The notes under the pieces are model-generated. The model ran no database searches. It was not told where the DNA came from and saw nothing but the letters and a program-made list of their open reading frames with translations. A program made the translations under genes and the position numbers. Positions 11,350 to 64,000 of a stretch of 64,000 nucleotides of DNA are shown piece by piece. The stretch's first letter is position 1. Each line of letters begins with the position of its first letter. This DNA is from Sipunculus nudus (taxonomy: Eukaryota > Annelida > Sipuncula > Golfingiida > Sipunculidae), in the NCBI GenBank assembly GCA_026874595.1, contig CM049317.1:31546901-31610900 (forward strand), given 5' to 3'.

Positions 11350-11450
11350 GGAAATGGTGTACACAGAAAAGTCATTTTACTGACGATGGGAAACGATCTT
11401 ATGATCTTCCGATTTCCGGTCGGGTGCCTTAACCACTTGGCTTCCTCAGG
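11308..11450 (-). repeat. Truncated tRNA-SINE with (TA)n end
   Basis: A (TA)n tract at 11308-11348 abuts a tail reading, on the minus strand, GACTTTTCTGTGTACACC then ATTTCCGTA. Next to the tail is a tRNA-like head: GCCAAGTGGTTAAGGC (A-box-like), a CCGA/TCGG stem around a 7-base loop, and a decayed T-arm GTTTCCCATCGTCAG. The same tail and T-arm words occur in the element at 41321-41752. No second inverted end is visible here, so this copy is incomplete. Confidence 0.65.
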
Positions 11451-41382: not shown

Positions 41383-41708
41383 TATAATAAATGGAACATT
41401 AAAACACAGAAAAGTTGGCTATTCATTCATCTCTATATATTTTATATGCCGCACTCCATATAAGGCCACAATTTCTCCCTGCTGTAAGCAAAGTTGCTGT
41501 CCCAACACATGTAGTGGGTAGTACTCTGACTACCGTGACGTCACTTCGCTGGTTCTGTAAAAGTGTTCAAATACACAGAGGGGTCGGGGATCTGCTGTAG
41601 CTCAGTGGATAGAGCAAGCAACCGGCAATCATAAGGTCATGGGTTCGATTCCCATCGGCAGTGAACCGACTTTTCTGTGTATTCATGTTCCATTTCTTCG
41701 TACGTACG

Positions 41709-56263: not shown

Positions 56264-56473
56264 CTAAAACTCATGAACAATTTCTATAATGTGCTCCTTT
56301 CCATTTCTTGGCACTACCGCTATTTTGGCCCCTACTCCTTCCAAAGGTTTTTCGAATAAATTTTTTTTTTCAAACCAATCATGTTCTGACCCCTGACTTA
56401 AATGGTAACCGAAGAAAGCACCATACTCGGAGATAAGATTAAAATGATGATCCAGGCCATTTAGCCTCATCAT
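56264..56473 (-). CDS. Small hypothetical protein, protein-like composition
   Basis: A 69-codon frame opens with two ATG codons and ends in TAG. Its composition is balanced: MMRLNGLDHHFNLISEYGAF at the start and AKIAVVPRNGKEHIIEIVHE near the end, with many charged residues and few Leu/Ile runs. This is unlike the other short frames here. Upstream on the same strand is a stretch with more CpG than its surroundings (56480-56740). There is no signal peptide, membrane segment or recognised domain. It could be a small gene, an exon of a larger one, or a piece of an unrecognised mobile element. Confidence 0.35.
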   Translation of the reverse strand: MMRLNGLDHHFNLISEYGAFFGYHLSQGSEHDWFEKKNLFEKPLEGVGAKIAVVPRNGKEHIIEIVHEF

Positions 56474-56479
56474 AGACGT

Positions 56480-56740
56480 CTTTCAAAATTTACGCAGGCC
56501 ATTACCTTACAAATTCAAAGCGAGGCTAAGCGTGGCACCGCGTAAACAAACTCGCATGTCAAAATGGCCGATCAACAGGTTCGCCTGGAACCGCATGACG
56601 GTCGTAAACTGTAAAAGTGATAGCTCAAGACAGCTGAGGGCCAGAAGAAGACCTACCATAGGTTTCTTACAAATCCTACAACCATGAAAGCGTGGGTCGT
56701 TAACATTCCACGGGACGAAGGGGCGCTTTTTAAGGTAGTA
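56480..56740. promoter_or_regulatory. CpG-richer block, possible bidirectional promoter
   Basis: CpG is frequent here compared with nearby DNA. On the plus strand TCAAAATGGCCG at about 56551-56562 is a good start context opening a 16-codon frame (MADQQVRLEPHDGRKL). On the minus strand the frame at 56264-56473 begins just outside. A divergent promoter is possible, but no TATA box or other element proves it. Confidence 0.25.
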
Positions 56741-57467
56741 GTTTCACTGTCACTGAATGAATTACATTTCAAAGTAAATTTTTGGAAGGTAATTCTTATT
56801 TATGGGCGGTCGTAACTTATTTTTAATGCAACTGAAAATATACTTGTATCAAGAAGTTAATATTTTGAAAGGAATGATGAATGTAACCTCAAGAACTGTG
56901 AACATAACATCGGGCGAGACCTATTATACAAAGGGGGGTTTTTTAAAGTCAAAATAAACGAATGCACGTGTCTAGCTGTCAATTTTGTTATTGTTAACCA
57001 CGGTTGTCAGCAAAGTCTACACCGTAGTACAAAGCGTTTCATAGACAGGAGACTAAAATGCTCCTTAATAGTTGGTATATAGAAAAATTCTGTGCAGATG
57101 AATGGAAAGACTGAGGCCATGAGGGCCAAAACAGTCTGCTACCGCAAATAATGCCCTCCTTTGAGGATTACTTGTAACAAATAGATGAAGTGATATGCCT
57201 TGTAAAGATATGCGATCAGCTGAGATCTTTCTGGAATAAGGATATTTTTTTTAACCTAGAAACACATCTTTTTGTAAAACATGCGTTTATCTTTGTTTAT
57301 AAGTAACAATATTAATTAATATAATTTTGTTATATTACAAACCCTCCAAAGATATTAAATATACTACTAGGCTTATTTTCATTGTATATCAAATTTATAT
57401 TGTTTATATCCACTATTAATAAAACATTGTGACATATTTTAAAATACTAACAACATTTTTATCATAA

Positions 57468-57471
<4 letters not shown>
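56741..57471. other. Unassigned DNA
   Basis: No feature recognised. Confidence 0.45.
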
Positions 57472-57506
<35 letters not shown>

Positions 57507-57522
57507 TATGTATATATATATC
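57472..57522. repeat. (TA)n microsatellite
   Basis: TA units with a TTAATATG interruption. Confidence 0.95.
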
Positions 57523-57935
57523 CTTTTGGCAATATACATATTTATTAAAAAAAAAAGTAATTAATTGCTGTAAAAAAGTTTGAGATTTTATATAAAGATT
57601 CATTTTTAGTCATTTGTTGAACTGAATGTTGGTGTTATTTTAAAATAACTGAAATATGTTATAATAAGGCAATATGATAATAAGGCAAAATAATTAGGCA
57701 AATGTTGTGGGCCATGATATATATTATCATATGCACTAAAATGATAGCACTGAAGTTCAACATATGAATATTTTTTGTTTGCATATTTACGATACAATGG
57801 AAATTAAACAGCTAATTTACTGGATTGAACACATGTATTGCAGGTATGGTCTAAAGCTTAGTTAAGATAGTGTTGCTTAAATATCTTTGATATATTTAAA
57901 ATTTATTTATGTTATACACATTTTACTTCTTTTAG

Positions 57936-59537
57936 GTGACAAGCAACACAGTAGTGTGCTCAGGCCACTTTTGCCATGAAGACTTCAAGTGGACTCCAGT
58001 GAGGAAAACATTGAGACCCACGGCTATACCAACTGCATTTGCCTGGAAGCCAATGCCATCCCATCGTTCAGGAAAAGCTACCAATCGCCATTTGATAAGG
58101 TAATTATGTTCTCAGTATGTATTATAAAATTCAGTTTCCTGAAAAAAAGTTATGCATGATGCCTGTCTCAAGGTGGATCTTCAGAAGAATTATTTGCTGG
58201 CCTCAGTCCATAGTGTTGGTTCCTCAGCTGTCTTCAATAAAAATTGTTTTGGTGGTTGTTTTTTTCTGAACTTTGAGACCAGGCAGACATTTAAATTTTA
58301 CAATTAAGACACTATCGTTTCAGCGTTTCATTTAATATCACTCATAGCCCCAAACCTGCAGACTTTGATCTCCACAAACGTCAGATTATCCCTGATCTTT
58401 ACCAGTATCCAAACCAATTTAAAACTAATATATACATCTTCAAGCTCATTTTCGTTATATTGTAAATAAATTATTCAGCACATTTTATTGCAACAGAGAA
58501 GTGTAAGCGAGAGAAAGAGAGAGACAGGAGGGAGGGAAGGGGGCTGGAAGAGGGTTAACAAAGATGGGTTTTTAAGGGAAATGTTTGTATGTGGGTAGGT
58601 ATGTTTGCAGTGTGCATATATATACATATTGTTATTGATAAATTTTACTGGAAATTACCCATTCATGTTAATGTAGTTTCTGAAAATTGCTTGAAGTAAT
58701 ATTTATTGTGTTTGGATTTATGTGGAAATGCCCCCCTGAGGACACGCTTTGCATTGTTCCTCATAGTTGAGAAGTCAGTAAACCCACAAAATAGGCATAT
58801 ATTTAGGTGTTACCAAAGAGGAGTTCCATTACAAAAGTTGAGTGGCGCCACCATCAATAATAATAAAGATTAAGACAGGACCGCATCAGAAAACTTCAGT
58901 TTGTTTACAATAAGTGATATGGTTAAATATTTTGTATTTTTAACAAATCAGCCAATCTAGTTACCAAAGAGTCAAATTCAGCAGATGATGCCAGATGTGT
59001 TTCAAGCTAAATATAGCAACACTCGTGTTGTTATTGATTGCACTGAGATAAGGTCTCAGCACCCCTCATCCCTTGTGCTGAACTCCCAGCTTTTTTTCTT
59101 ATTATAAAAACTATACCACCTACAAAGCATTAATTGGGATTGAACCCCATGGTGCTGTTACATTTGTTTCATCTCTCTATACTGGCTGTATATCAGACAA
59201 AGAAATTACTAAAACATGTGGGCTCCTGGACCTATTAGAGCCAGGTGACAGTATCATGGCTGATAAGGGTTTTTTGGTACATGACCTTCTGAAAGGAAAA
59301 CAGTGTTCTCTAAATATTCCTCCATTCCTTAAAGATAGAGGTCAGTTCAGTCTTACAGACATCACACAATCATTAGAAATTGCTAGTCTTAGTATTCATG
59401 TGGAACGCTTTATAAGGCGTGTTAAGGAGAACCACATGTTTGATAGTGAGATTCCATTGAAAATTATGGGATCAATTAACCAACGGTGGACACTGGCTGT
59501 TATTCTTGCAACCTTCAAAGGGCCACTGATTAAGTAA
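57936..59537 (+). pseudogene. THAP-DDE transposase, ISL2EU-like, broken
   Basis: The first exon (57936-58099) follows a CTTCTTTTAG acceptor and ends at a GATAAG/GTAATT donor. It encodes the second half of a THAP zinc finger: VVCSGHFCHEDFKWTPVRK and LRPTAIPTAF. The DDE domain (about 58978-59537) starts QMMPDVFQAKYSNTRVV. Its catalytic acids are visible in VIDCTEIR (D), GDSIMADKGF (D) and HVERFIRRVKENHMF (E); the frame ends in KGPLIK. One base is gained or lost in the T7 run at 59091-59097, so IDCTE and the rest lie in different frames. The first half of the THAP domain and the helix-turn-helix region normally between the two domains are not seen. The enzyme would cut and join transposon ends; this copy probably cannot. 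It is convergent with the nuclease gene at 59897-60886. Confidence 0.88.
58100..58977. other. Intron-like spacer inside the transposase gene
   Basis: No coding content is recognised where the transposase linker should be. A GA-rich stretch (58505-58560) and a TGTATG-rich stretch (58585-58610) are present. GTTGAGTGGCGCCACCATC at 58837-58855 carries the palindromic core seen in the 9.9-10.2 kb array. Confidence 0.5.
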
Positions 59538-59896
59538 TGGAATCAAATCAAGTATATGCATTATCAGAACTACATAATCCTACATGACCAATTAACTTAG
59601 TGTAGAATGTAATTGTAAATAACTTGCTTACCATGTTCAATGCTGATTAAATTACAAGCTGGAAAATACAACAACTCCAAGGAGTATTTCAGTTATCCAG
59701 CCACGGTTAATACCAAGTAATCAAGTTAAAATGTGGACTCCAGTGCCTTTGTGTACATGCTTATATTAAGATAAGACCAAACAAAAAAGTTCCACCACTC
59801 CAGACCAGTGACCGCTAACTGGGTTTGTACCTGAGTATAATGCTCGTGCTTTCTATCAAGCCGGAGACCTCCTTATGTTGATTTAAAGTAACTAAC
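59538..59896. other. Spacer between convergent transposon genes
   Basis: No gene is recognised. The C-terminal exon of the nuclease gene, expected here on the minus strand, is not visible. Confidence 0.45.
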
Positions 59897-60886
59897 CTCT
59901 AAAACTGACATAAATCGTGGACATTTAATTTCCAGTAATCCAAAGGAAGGAGCTCTGCTGGGCGTGTAAACTTTCCGGTCAGGGCTCGCAGCTAACCAAA
60001 ATGCCCATGTACTAACAATAATACCACATGGAAGAATGTTGACTGTGTGCTGCAGGGCCCTCACATATCCTGCTGCAGGTATGGGCTCATCTGCCAGGCC
60101 ATCCCTCATGGCTTGAGTCTGAACCCTTCTGCCTGATTTTAATTGTAATGTTAGTGTATCAAAATTCTTCTGTCTCCTGAACACAAGGTGAGCCTTTGAA
60201 GCTGTGATCCGGTTGGATCTCATTTGATGCCACAGACTGGTGTCACTCTCTGTAGTCTTGTGTCCATCTCGATACCATGAGCTTGTGTTTCAGTGACCCC
60301 TAGATCATTTAGCATGACACTCTCTGGCTGTGTTAGAACAATATTAAAGTCGTTGATCATCCTGTTAGCAAGAGGGAGCTTTGGAAAATCCACGCCATCA
60401 AGAATGTTAAAACAATACAGAGAGTTATACTGCTGTCGTGTGGTTACAGCAGAACCTTTTGGGAAGCTCCCAAATTTGATATGAACCATAGGTGTTGACC
60501 GATAATTCCTGAGGGCTGGTATAATCAGGTAATTTGGTGCAACCTGCTCCAGTGAATCTGCAAGAGAGGACATGTCAGGCATGCCCCCACTGATGGGATT
60601 GTACAAGGCATTACCTTTACTGTCAGGTGTATCACTGCTGCATGCCTTCACACAAAGTTCCTGGACAGCAGCTCCACATATCTTTGGGGCCCCTCGGTTG
60701 ATGGAACTCTTGTAAGACTGAGGTTTTGGCCACATCGGACGGTACACCCCTGAGTCCTCTGGCTTTGTAGTCTGCAAGCTGGTACAGGAGTGCAGCCACA
60801 TGACTACACCCCTCACCTAACCCCTTTGCACATGTACAATAGGCTGCCTTGATGGTCACTCCAGGCATGTCCACAACTAACTGAAC
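59897..60886 (-). pseudogene. SWIM zinc finger plus YqaJ-type nuclease, transposon-borne, broken
   Basis: The exon starts after a TTGATTTCAG acceptor at 60887 with VQLVVDMPGVTIKAAY. It enters a SWIM zinc finger CTCAKGLGEGCSH (CxC-x7-CxH, about 60838-60800). A basic linker with LQEFHQPRGPK follows, then a helical middle part with PNYLIIPALRNY. The YqaJ/lambda-exonuclease-like domain shows SNRITASKAHLVF, GLADEPIPAAGYV, AASPDRK and LLEIKCP; the SPD and ExK acids are the usual catalytic set. The second residue after SPD is K and the first R, where G is common. Two frameshifts break the frame, one at GGGGCCCC (60686-60693) and one in the CTCTCTG stretch at about 60247-60254. The exon seems to end at GAG/GTTAGT (59897), and the C-terminal part was not found. 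The family acts on double-stranded DNA ends; its role in the transposon is not settled. Confidence 0.85.
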
Positions 60887-61790
60887 CTGAAATCAAATTA
60901 AGTGTAAATTAACCTAAATAATGATATATCTTTACACAAATACAAGCTTCTAATTACAAGTACTTCCATTGTACTCCCACCACCCTACAAGAACAAGGCA
61001 CCCATGGGTCTTTGCGCTCAGCTGAAACTGATCATGAGAATATTTTCATAAATACCTACTTTGTTAAAAAATACAGCAACACGAATTTTTTTAGTATAGT
61101 TATTTGAGAAATGAACACAATACACACATCTGGAGTTAAAAAACCTGTGTACTTTTATGGGCACAATGCAGGAGCTTCTAATAATTACATATTTTTCTTT
61201 AATAATTATAAAGTTAAATCAAAAGAGATTTCACAGTTGATTGAAAATGAACAATAGTAGAGTTTGTTTTAAACTCATTTGCAGAGAGGGTATATCTGAT
61301 ACAGTTGAATGTGGCATCATTGAATCAAGTTTATCTTTAAGATGTTTGGATAAAAGCAAAACATAAACATTTACATTAGAACATTAATGATGTTCATTGT
61401 ACTGTGTGTATGTGAGGTGGGTGGGGGGGGGTTGGTTCTCAGATTTTAATAAATCTGCTCTCTCTCTCTCAGTCTCAGCAGTGGACTAAGCCCATTAGTC
61501 TATACTGTACTTAATGGCATTAGAACAGAAAAGTCTGAACCCTTTAGAGCAAAAACTAACTCAAAAGCCTTTTATGGCAAACACTGACTCATCATCTTAT
61601 TAGAGAATTAAAGATTACATCATCTCATATTTTTGTATTACCCCAAAAAATTACAGACAGTAATACCACCCATGATAACAAGACAGTACACCAAAACAGT
61701 AACAAAACCAACATACAAAAAGAACATACAAAAAGGGTACTATATAAAAAGTACATATATGAATACAAATTGACCTGTTTGTTCAAAGTA
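60887..61790. other. Upstream intron/flank of the nuclease gene, unassigned
   Basis: Further exons of the nuclease gene would be expected on the minus strand but none could be recognised. A G-run lies at 61421-61430 and a CT-repeat at 61459-61471. Confidence 0.45.
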
Positions 61791-61794
61791 CCGT

Positions 61795-64000
61795 ATGACT
61801 AACAATTTATCATCTTTTCCATCTATACATTATTTTAGAAATACTTATGATGTTAATTTAAAGAAGCTAAATATTTTTGTTTTCCTTTATATGTCAAATA
61901 TATTGTGTCATACAAATTATCTATTGTGTAGTAATGGATCAAGTTTCCGTTGTCCTTCTGATATTTTGCCACAAAAGTTTCCATTTTTTTTTCTGCAGGC
62001 TTATCTGTACATTCAATCTTCCTTTGATAATCCATGTATTTTTTTAAGTTTTCAAGGTTTATCTGAACATAATTTTAGTTCTATATATAAAAGCTTTTGC
62101 ATGTATAAGAATTTTATTTTCCATTATCATATTCTTTTAAGATATTCCTAAAATAATATTCCTTTTTGTAAATAAACCAATTGGTAAACCATAAAAAATG
62201 CTTATATCTTGCCAAAACCGTTTAACAGTAGAACAATTACAAAAGAAATGCTCATACTTTTCTACCTCTGTATGGCAAAACCTACAATATGGGTCTTCAG
62301 TAAAACCAAACTTATATAATCTTTCTTTAAGATATAAATAATTATGGAGTATTTTAAACTGAAACTCACTCACTTTCTTATCCTTACATAATGTTAGACT
62401 ATTGGTATATAAAAGACCCCACTCTTCATCTATCACATTATATTTAGTACTAAACTTTTGCCTTGTACTTGAATCCTGTGTTTTAACAAGACTAATAAAA
62501 TAATCATATACCTGCTTTGCAATAACATTTTCAACTGCAATTAGCCCTTGTCTTGTTTAACAAATAAATAGATTTTGTAAAATCGACTGTCCATTATATC
62601 TCCATTGATTCAATATTTAACTTTGATTAATTATTGACCTATAAACCAAATAGTCTCTTTGTTTTGCTCCTTTTTCTTCCCACTCTTTCAAACTGACTGG
62701 ATTCCCATTCACACCAAATAATTGTTTTACATATATTAAATCTGACTGATAAAGTGACTTACAGAAGAACGCTTTGCATTTTATTTTAATATTCTTATTA
62801 TTCCATATGCAATAAGATAACTCTGGAACACGAACTTGCTTCCATGCAATAAACATATCTATGTATACATCTGGCATTGAACCTTTTAGACAGTTTTTGG
62901 TATAATTACACTCTAACAATAATTTTGTGGTCCCAAATATATCACAAAATGAGTCTATAATCACTTTCGAATCTTTTTTGGTTTTATCTAAATATCTTTT
63001 AATCCACATTATCTGTTGTGCTTTTATATAGCCATCAATACTTACCAATTCAGCCCCCTATTTTCAAATGGTTTATCAGCAGATCTCTTTTAACTCTTCC
63101 CTTTTTTTTTGTCCCTTCCATATAAAACACCATAATATATTATTTAATCGCTTTTTTTAAGTTTCCGGCATATTGAAATTTGCCAAGAGATGAGAGAGTT
63201 TAGAAAAACATAGTGTTTTAACTATTAAAATTCGCCCTTGCAATGTTAAATTTCTTTGTTTCCACATGTTTGTTATATGATATATGCTATTAATTTTATT
63301 TTCAAAATTTAATGTATTACTCATTTCTGTATTATATGATATATATGTGCCTAGCACTTTCACACATTTTGACCACACTAACCCTAAAGGTTTACTATTG
63401 CTATCTTTGTTTTTTTCTTAACCACATTGTTTCAGTTTTAGCATTATAAATGTGTAAACCTGAACATTTAGTAAACTCTCTGAACAAATCTAAAACAGTT
63501 TTAAGCGAGTCCAAATCTTTTAAGATAACAGTGGTGTCATCAGCATATAAAACCACTTTTAACTTCCTTGTTTTTAATCTTTATACCATGAATGTCTTGA
63601 TGATTCCTAATTAAACTGCAATTATTTCTAAACAGATAATAAATAAATATGGTGATAAGGGGTCTTCTTGTCTAACTCCTCTTCCTATTTTAAAATATCC
63701 TGAAGAATGTCCATTTTTCATGATACAAGCTTACACATCTTTATACAATACTTTAACCCATTTAATAAATGATTCACCAAAATTAAATCTTTTTAGCGCT
63801 GCAAAAATAAACTGCCATTCCACTGTATCGAACGCTTTTTCAAATTTAAAACCATTTAATTTACATTTATCTACATAAAATAAAGAATCTAAGATGGTTC
63901 TTATTGCCTCTGTCATTGGTGTATTTTTTACATATCCAAATTGGTTTCTATGTATGATTTTTGACAAAACATGCTTACCTCTAAAAGATAAGGCTTTTGT
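61795..64000 (-). pseudogene. L1/Tx1-like LINE, RT and C-terminal part, continues beyond window
   Basis: Read from 64000 down, the RT has KIIHRNQFGYVKNTPMTEAI, FEKAFDTVEWQFIFAALKRF, GRGVRQEDPLSPYLFII (about 63690-63640), IHGIKIKNKEVK, VLYADDTTVILKDLDSLK (YADD at 63536-63547) and VKVLGTYISYNTE with WKQRNLTLQGRILIVKTLCF (63378-63160). The C-terminal part has a tail with PELSYCIWNN (62617-63048) and a zinc knuckle CRFCHTEVEKYEHFFCNC (near 62285-62230), then the remnant NKILIHAKAFIYRTK with stops. Frames shift at about 63553-63562 and 63611-63620. Motif A reads GFKFEKAFD instead of the usual DFEKAFD, so its catalytic Asp is missing. In a live copy this protein primes and copies RNA at the nicked target. 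Confidence 0.9.

Follow-up and report, generated by a model that had tools for sequence, protein, structure and literature searches.

A decayed ISL2EU-type transposon in Sipunculus nudus with convergent THAP-DDE transposase and SWIM-YqaJ nuclease genes

The 64,000-nucleotide stretch of Sipunculus nudus DNA analyzed here, referred to as the window (C12:31546901-31610900, in a genome of 1.43 Gb), contains a dead copy of a cut-and-paste transposon of the ISL2EU group, PHIS superfamily, as judged by matching to the published description. In this copy, a transposase gene on the forward strand converges with a nuclease gene on the reverse strand. We consider it likely that these remnants reflect a single unit carrying both genes, in which the nuclease would act on the DNA ends made during transposition.

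The pairing of a transposase with a YqaJ gene, which an initial annotation of this DNA had taken to be known, is already published as ISL2EU, and the window copy adds a new member. PMC4482050 reports ISL2EU only from animals and states that it is not known what the additional gene does; the same two genes are described in PMC9179366. The word SWIM is absent from the main texts of both papers, and within the open-licence papers covered no mention was found of a SWIM- or SAP-YqaJ fusion.

Domains were called in a Pfam scan of eight translated stretches (Table 1). The initial annotation had placed THAP, DDE, SWIM and YqaJ domains, in two convergent genes, at 57936..60886; Pfam matches on opposite strands bear out both the domains and the convergence, with the THAP match covering the C-terminal half of that domain only, and the SWIM finger on the nuclease is recovered by Pfam as well as by a motif scan. 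As a description of the element the interval stood only in part, because it covers just the middle of a unit that extends from 56474 to 68677; the true borders, an upstream THAP exon and a LINE-like insertion had been missed. Chance is excluded by the Pfam E-values together with the 89-93% DNA identity, in three blocks, between the window copy and a relative on C2.

Table 1. Features of the decayed element, in window coordinates
Feature	Position	Strand	Basis or remark
AT dinucleotide, candidate target-site duplication	56472..56473	.	left border
ISL2EU-type transposon, family A, decayed copy	56474..64000, on to 68677 outside window	+	blastn
Subterminal motif AAAGCGAGGCTAAGCG	56517..56532	+	CGAGGC starts 47 nt inside left end
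Remnant of THAP exon 1, with stops and without its Cys pair	56546..56812	+	tblastn with C2 exon, E 9e-45
THAP exon 2, C-terminal half of domain	57936..58100	+	Pfam THAP profile 50-87, E 3.4e-05
DDE exon, frameshifted; start without 547 bp including HTH	58953..59534	+	
DDE_Tnp_4	59082-59534	+	Pfam E 3e-27
SWIM-YqaJ exon, spread over three frames; 760 bp gone at 59773	59729..60892	-	
YqaJ nuclease core, SPD ... LEIK catalytic motif retained	59876..60289	-	Pfam E 1.4e-09
SWIM zinc finger CTCAKGLGEGCSHVAALLY	60635..60892	-	Pfam E 1.2e-04 and motif scan
LINE-like insertion interrupting element	61617..64000, to ~67151 outside window	-	zf-RVT and similarity gap

Both genes of the window copy are broken, by frameshifts in the DDE and nuclease frames, two deletions and the LINE-like insertion. 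The residues of the DDE core are nevertheless readable: VVIDCTE (first D) lies in 58961-59098, a stretch that alone gave no Pfam match, while MADKGF (second D) and HVERFIRR (E) lie in 59082-59534. The SPD ... LEIK motif of the nuclease was read in the open reading frame against the nuclease alignment described below. Compared with the C2 copy, the bases absent at 58952 correspond to the HTH and a stretch that by eye resembles a coiled coil, and those absent at 59773 to the nuclease C-terminus and intergenic sequence; inspection of the deletion junctions by eye revealed no clear pattern. Similarity to the family breaks off at 61616 and restarts at C12:31614052, leaving a gap of ~5.5 kb in which a zf-RVT match is found at 62140-62556 (Pfam E 2.3e-09). 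A target duplication belonging to this LINE-like insertion itself was not recognized. Elsewhere in the window, two tRNA matches exceed the Rfam gathering score, at 41591-41663 (+) and 11378-11450 (-).

The borders were set by copies in the same genome. The closest ones are family A copies on C2 (L009/L029), C11 (L010/L030) and C15 at 19.72 Mb (L036/L037), together with two sites on C12, namely a copy at 31.72 Mb (L017/L034) and a tandem triplet at 19.49-19.52 Mb (L011-L013, L031-L033). The family extent was obtained from blastn to the C2, C11, triplet and C12:31.72 Mb copies, which puts the right end of the window copy at C12:31615577, beyond the window. The flanks differ among family A copies except within the triplet (C12:19490000-19524999), where the three copies have common flanks and all lack the nuclease core.

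At the left end, six of seven family A copies have AT followed by AGAC, while one tandem copy has AC; the C15 left end also reads AGAC after AT. In all six copies in which the right end was read, the element is followed by AT, preceded by GTCT in five and by a substituted form in C12:31.72 Mb; the right ends of the window copy and of a copy at C15:56.30 Mb are GTCT, then AT. The dinucleotide is consequently found at both ends of the window, C2, C11, C12:31.72 Mb and triplet copies, and likewise in families B and C described below. This AT is a candidate target duplication, although an invariant AT is indistinguishable from terminal bases. Inverted repeats starting with GG were not seen in families A, B and C, where the ends start with AG, whereas the start described in PMC4482050 is "usually" GG. 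The very ends of family A have only AGAC in common, in addition to a mirrored subterminal motif.

The transposase of the C2 copy matches THAP, HTH_Tnp_4 and DDE_Tnp_4 in Pfam (THAP exon 1, E 3.5e-10), and open frames of 380 aa (HTH and DDE) and 410 aa (SWIM and YqaJ) remain. The likeness to ISL2EU comprises a transposase with DDE, HTH and THAP parts, YqaJ as the second gene, and AT at both ends. A difference is the length, which is 8473 bp for C2 once a nested element is removed, as compared to an average of ~4840 bp for ISL2EU. The nested element (local positions 10060-12270 in L009/L029) is 2.2 kb long, has ~415-bp inverted ends, GGCAATAAATAA, that are 83% alike, and is flanked by a 9-bp duplication, GTTGTTGTA.

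The mirrored motif of family A, AAAGCGAGGC, places CGAGGC 47 nt inside both ends of the C2, C12:31.72 and window copies, in the last of these with the right-hand motif outside the window. At the left end of C11 the bases preceding CGAGGC carry a one-base variant, AAATCGAGGC. In family B, the corresponding motif, AAAACGAGGCTGCCA, puts CGAGGC 37 nt inside both ends, and at the locus L014 it is found 47 nt inside the right end, the left end of that copy not having been found. A motif scan of the family C ends found no CGAGGC-type subterminal motif. The difference of 10 nt between the two spacings amounts to roughly one helix turn. We infer that the motif is a putative protein-binding site, the binder of which is probably the THAP domain.

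Whether the two genes travel together is best seen from copies at different sites. In the sister family C, L021 and L022 are 99.76% identical across 5729 aligned bases, occupy different sites and have the same ends, AAT followed by AGCGCTGATCGG, with frames of 432 and 571 aa open in both; the A-AT-T context of both copies is one described in PMC4482050. In family B, L015 and L024 share AT-AGGCC ends and are 95.9% identical; L024 has a broken DDE frame. A further pair, L026/L028, has the left end ATAAGTC in common. Families A (C2, C11), B (L015/L024) and C (L021/L022) all have both genes between common ends at different sites, as expected from the proposal in the initial annotation of a single ISL2EU-type unit; L021/L022 are examples of the intact relatives that it thought worth finding elsewhere in the genome. 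Whether both genes always lie within the ends, the further test named there, comes out positive in these three families but not in solo copies of family A. Of these, the C15:19.72 Mb copy has the nuclease but no DDE core, and the triplet on C12 has kept DDE but lost its nuclease by deletion. These solo copies retain the family left end and have internal deletions. Among 20 loci examined, a nuclease was found in 14 by tblastn and in two more (L019, L020) from the YqaJ places; L018 has no YqaJ among the places listed.

Genome-wide counts of the pairing were made from the best 150 of 271 candidates for DDE loci similar to the window transposase, which merged to 141 loci, from the best 150 of 701 candidates for other DDE_Tnp_4 loci in a Pfam search, and from the best 150 of 171 candidates for YqaJ places. 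All pairing counts are lower bounds; the C11 copy, for example, is absent among the YqaJ places listed although its nuclease is present. Among the matches listed, a convergent YqaJ, placed downstream of the DDE gene on the other strand and no more than 6 kb away, was seen at at least 80 of the 141 similar loci; three have one in another orientation and 58 have none. At the loci found in the Pfam search only, a convergent YqaJ was seen at 2/66 and none at 64/66 among the matches listed. Taking all 207 loci together gives 82 with a convergent YqaJ, three in another orientation and 122 without, again among the matches listed, as compared to a mean of 0.275 and a maximum of 4 pairs in 200 circular shifts of these loci (chromosomes taken as 80 Mb). 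Pairing with YqaJ is, among the matches listed, specific to window-like transposases, and this favors one transposon in the test set by the initial annotation for genes in separate elements.

That the two genes stem from different neighboring elements, or that one of them is a host gene, can be given hardly any credence. The nuclease without a DDE core at C15:19.72 Mb, the DDE without a nuclease in the C12 triplet, and the 45 of 130 YqaJ places (the other 85 have one) that have no DDE_Tnp_4 within 6 kb among the matches listed could be read in that way, but the solo family A copies keep the family left end and have internal deletions, and L021/L022 carry both genes between identical ends. Separate elements were rejected on account of these ends common to both genes.

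To characterize the nuclease, seven proteins standing for six families were aligned (alignment A1, from which L027 and L016 were left out); the other members share 25-49% identity with the first. Residues D308, E324, K326, Q357 and Q361 are invariant in 7/7 sequences. The YqaJ profile and the D...ExK motif, kept in the window copy as SPD and LEIK, assign these proteins to the lambda/alkaline exonuclease family, from which they differ in having a SWIM finger fused to the nuclease. Searched against the PDB, the A1 profile matches 3syy ("Exonuclease", 2.5e-22), 1avq (lambda exonuclease, 7.1e-11), 5yet (R354, 8e-11), 3pov (ORF 37, 3.3e-07) and 2w45 (alkaline exonuclease, 3.7e-07), while the single window sequence gave no match in that database. 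The only PDB match of the SWIM part of the profile is ZSWIM8, at E 0.91.

The Pfam SWIM profile scores above the cut-off in the window, L015 and L023 and below it in L009 and L027, and has no match in L014, L021, L025, L026 and the L019 piece. A contiguous CxCx(n)CxH motif is present in 10 of the 21 sequences scanned, the window among them; in L019, L026 and L027, the SWIM halves seem, by eye, to be split between two exons. The product of the nuclease gene at L026:6658-9505 also has a SAP domain, located towards the N-terminus, and a C-terminal PHD finger.

Because the catalytic residues are conserved in six of the seven families aligned, the nuclease probably works. In the decayed member L016 the E and K are retained, and in L027 both are replaced although the frame is still open. 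Three of four nuclease copy pairs have dN/dS ratios below one (NG86): C2/C15 (dN 0.018, dS 0.041, ratio ~0.44), L015/L024 (0.0146, 0.0439, 0.33) and L026/L028 (0.0025, 0.0097, 0.25). The transposases of C2/C11 (0.0052, 0.049) and L026/L028 (0.0144, 0.0293) differ as well, while those of L021/L022 are identical; between families, silent sites are saturated. The changes are few throughout, and the transposase of the C15 copy is lost, so that part of them may be decay. Two of these observations count against the overall explanation given at the outset, namely the loss of the active-site E and K in L027, one of seven families, and the ratio of ~1.1 for the L021/L022 nuclease (dN 0.0030, dS 0.0027, five differences), as do the 58 of 141 similar DDE loci without YqaJ within 6 kb and the three in another orientation, among the matches listed. 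A mirror-tree comparison was discarded as evidence: its correlation of 0.88 with eight rows (67/40320 permutations) falls to 0.70 with seven rows (51/5040) when L016, which is decayed and belongs to the L014 family, is dropped, and to 0.19 (173/720) without L014 as well.

In complete relatives, the left gene encodes a transposase with THAP, HTH and DDE parts and the convergent right gene a SWIM-YqaJ nuclease, to which SAP and PHD domains are added in one family. In the mechanism that we propose, the THAP domain would bind the subterminal motif, the DDE core would cut the element ends and join them at a new AT site, and the nuclease would act catalytically on the DNA ends made in the process. 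As to what the nuclease is used for, we rank donor repair first, second-strand cutting next and a structural role last. Specifically, we tentatively prefer 5'-end resection of the donor break, with repair from the sister or homologue restoring the element there; SWIM and SAP would keep the nuclease on DNA or on recombination proteins. A more far-reaching formulation, possible but doubtful, is that ISL2EU encodes its own recombination step, in which a SWIM-guided exonuclease resects the excision break and a template heals it; if true, a cut-and-paste transposon would become replicative in effect.

YqaJ and Tn7 TnsA both fall in the broad PD-(D/E)XK class of nucleases, and a TnsA-like split is conceivable in which DDE cuts and joins the 3' ends while YqaJ cuts the 5' ends for a clean exit. 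Such a division of labor would agree with YqaJ adjoining DDE at at least 80 of the 141 similar loci, among the matches listed, and with the active site conserved in 6/7 families, but the relatives of known structure that come closest are exonucleases of the lambda and alkaline types, enzymes that require a free end, and we regard it as improbable. Slightly less probable still is that the second protein is a structural or import partner that binds the ends or takes the transposase to the nucleus, its nuclease activity being incidental. SWIM, SAP and PHD, all present among these nucleases, are binding domains, the L027 frame has stayed open despite the loss of two catalytic residues, and the Myb-like second protein of Harbinger has such a role according to PMC9179366; the D, E and K that are invariant in 7/7 A1 nucleases (six families) speak against this role.

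Spy, reported as the sister clade of ISL2EU in a transposase tree (PMC11304231), differs in having no target duplication and no second gene described (PMC4482050, PMC9179366, PMC11304231), yet its transposases are active (PMC11304231), which counts against our overall explanation. Because Spy is active and described without a second gene, the nuclease seems dispensable for the basic reaction and that of ISL2EU should serve beyond cutting and joining. Like ISL2EU, KolobokE is a eukaryotic transposon of the DDD/E type that carries a PD-D/ExK nuclease resembling lambda exonuclease, but it belongs to a different transposase superfamily (PMC9587614). The association of a transposon with an exonuclease probably arose twice, and its presence in a second lineage hints that carrying such a nuclease is of general benefit. 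With several families in this genome, including near-identical copies in which both frames are open, the role of the nuclease becomes testable.

Relatives were also sought in viral contigs. In two scans with the window proteins, none of the 16 and 7 pattern matches was confirmed as a relative, while a profile scan found 26 YqaJ relatives out of 180 pattern matches; a motif scan of the fetched stretches of these 26 revealed no SWIM. In the S. nudus genome, four equal-scoring copies of one YqaJ family (C12:16906540-16907004, C3:82037477, C9:37468068 and C17:16821815) have an open frame of 566 aa, and a further copy, at C5:87493676, has a stop; among the matches listed, this family has no DDE_Tnp_4 within 6 kb. 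At 2.5 kb from one of these copies, a convergent THAP half-exon is found without a long DDE frame (L067, 547-816), and the family may be a nonautonomous form in which the nuclease has been retained.
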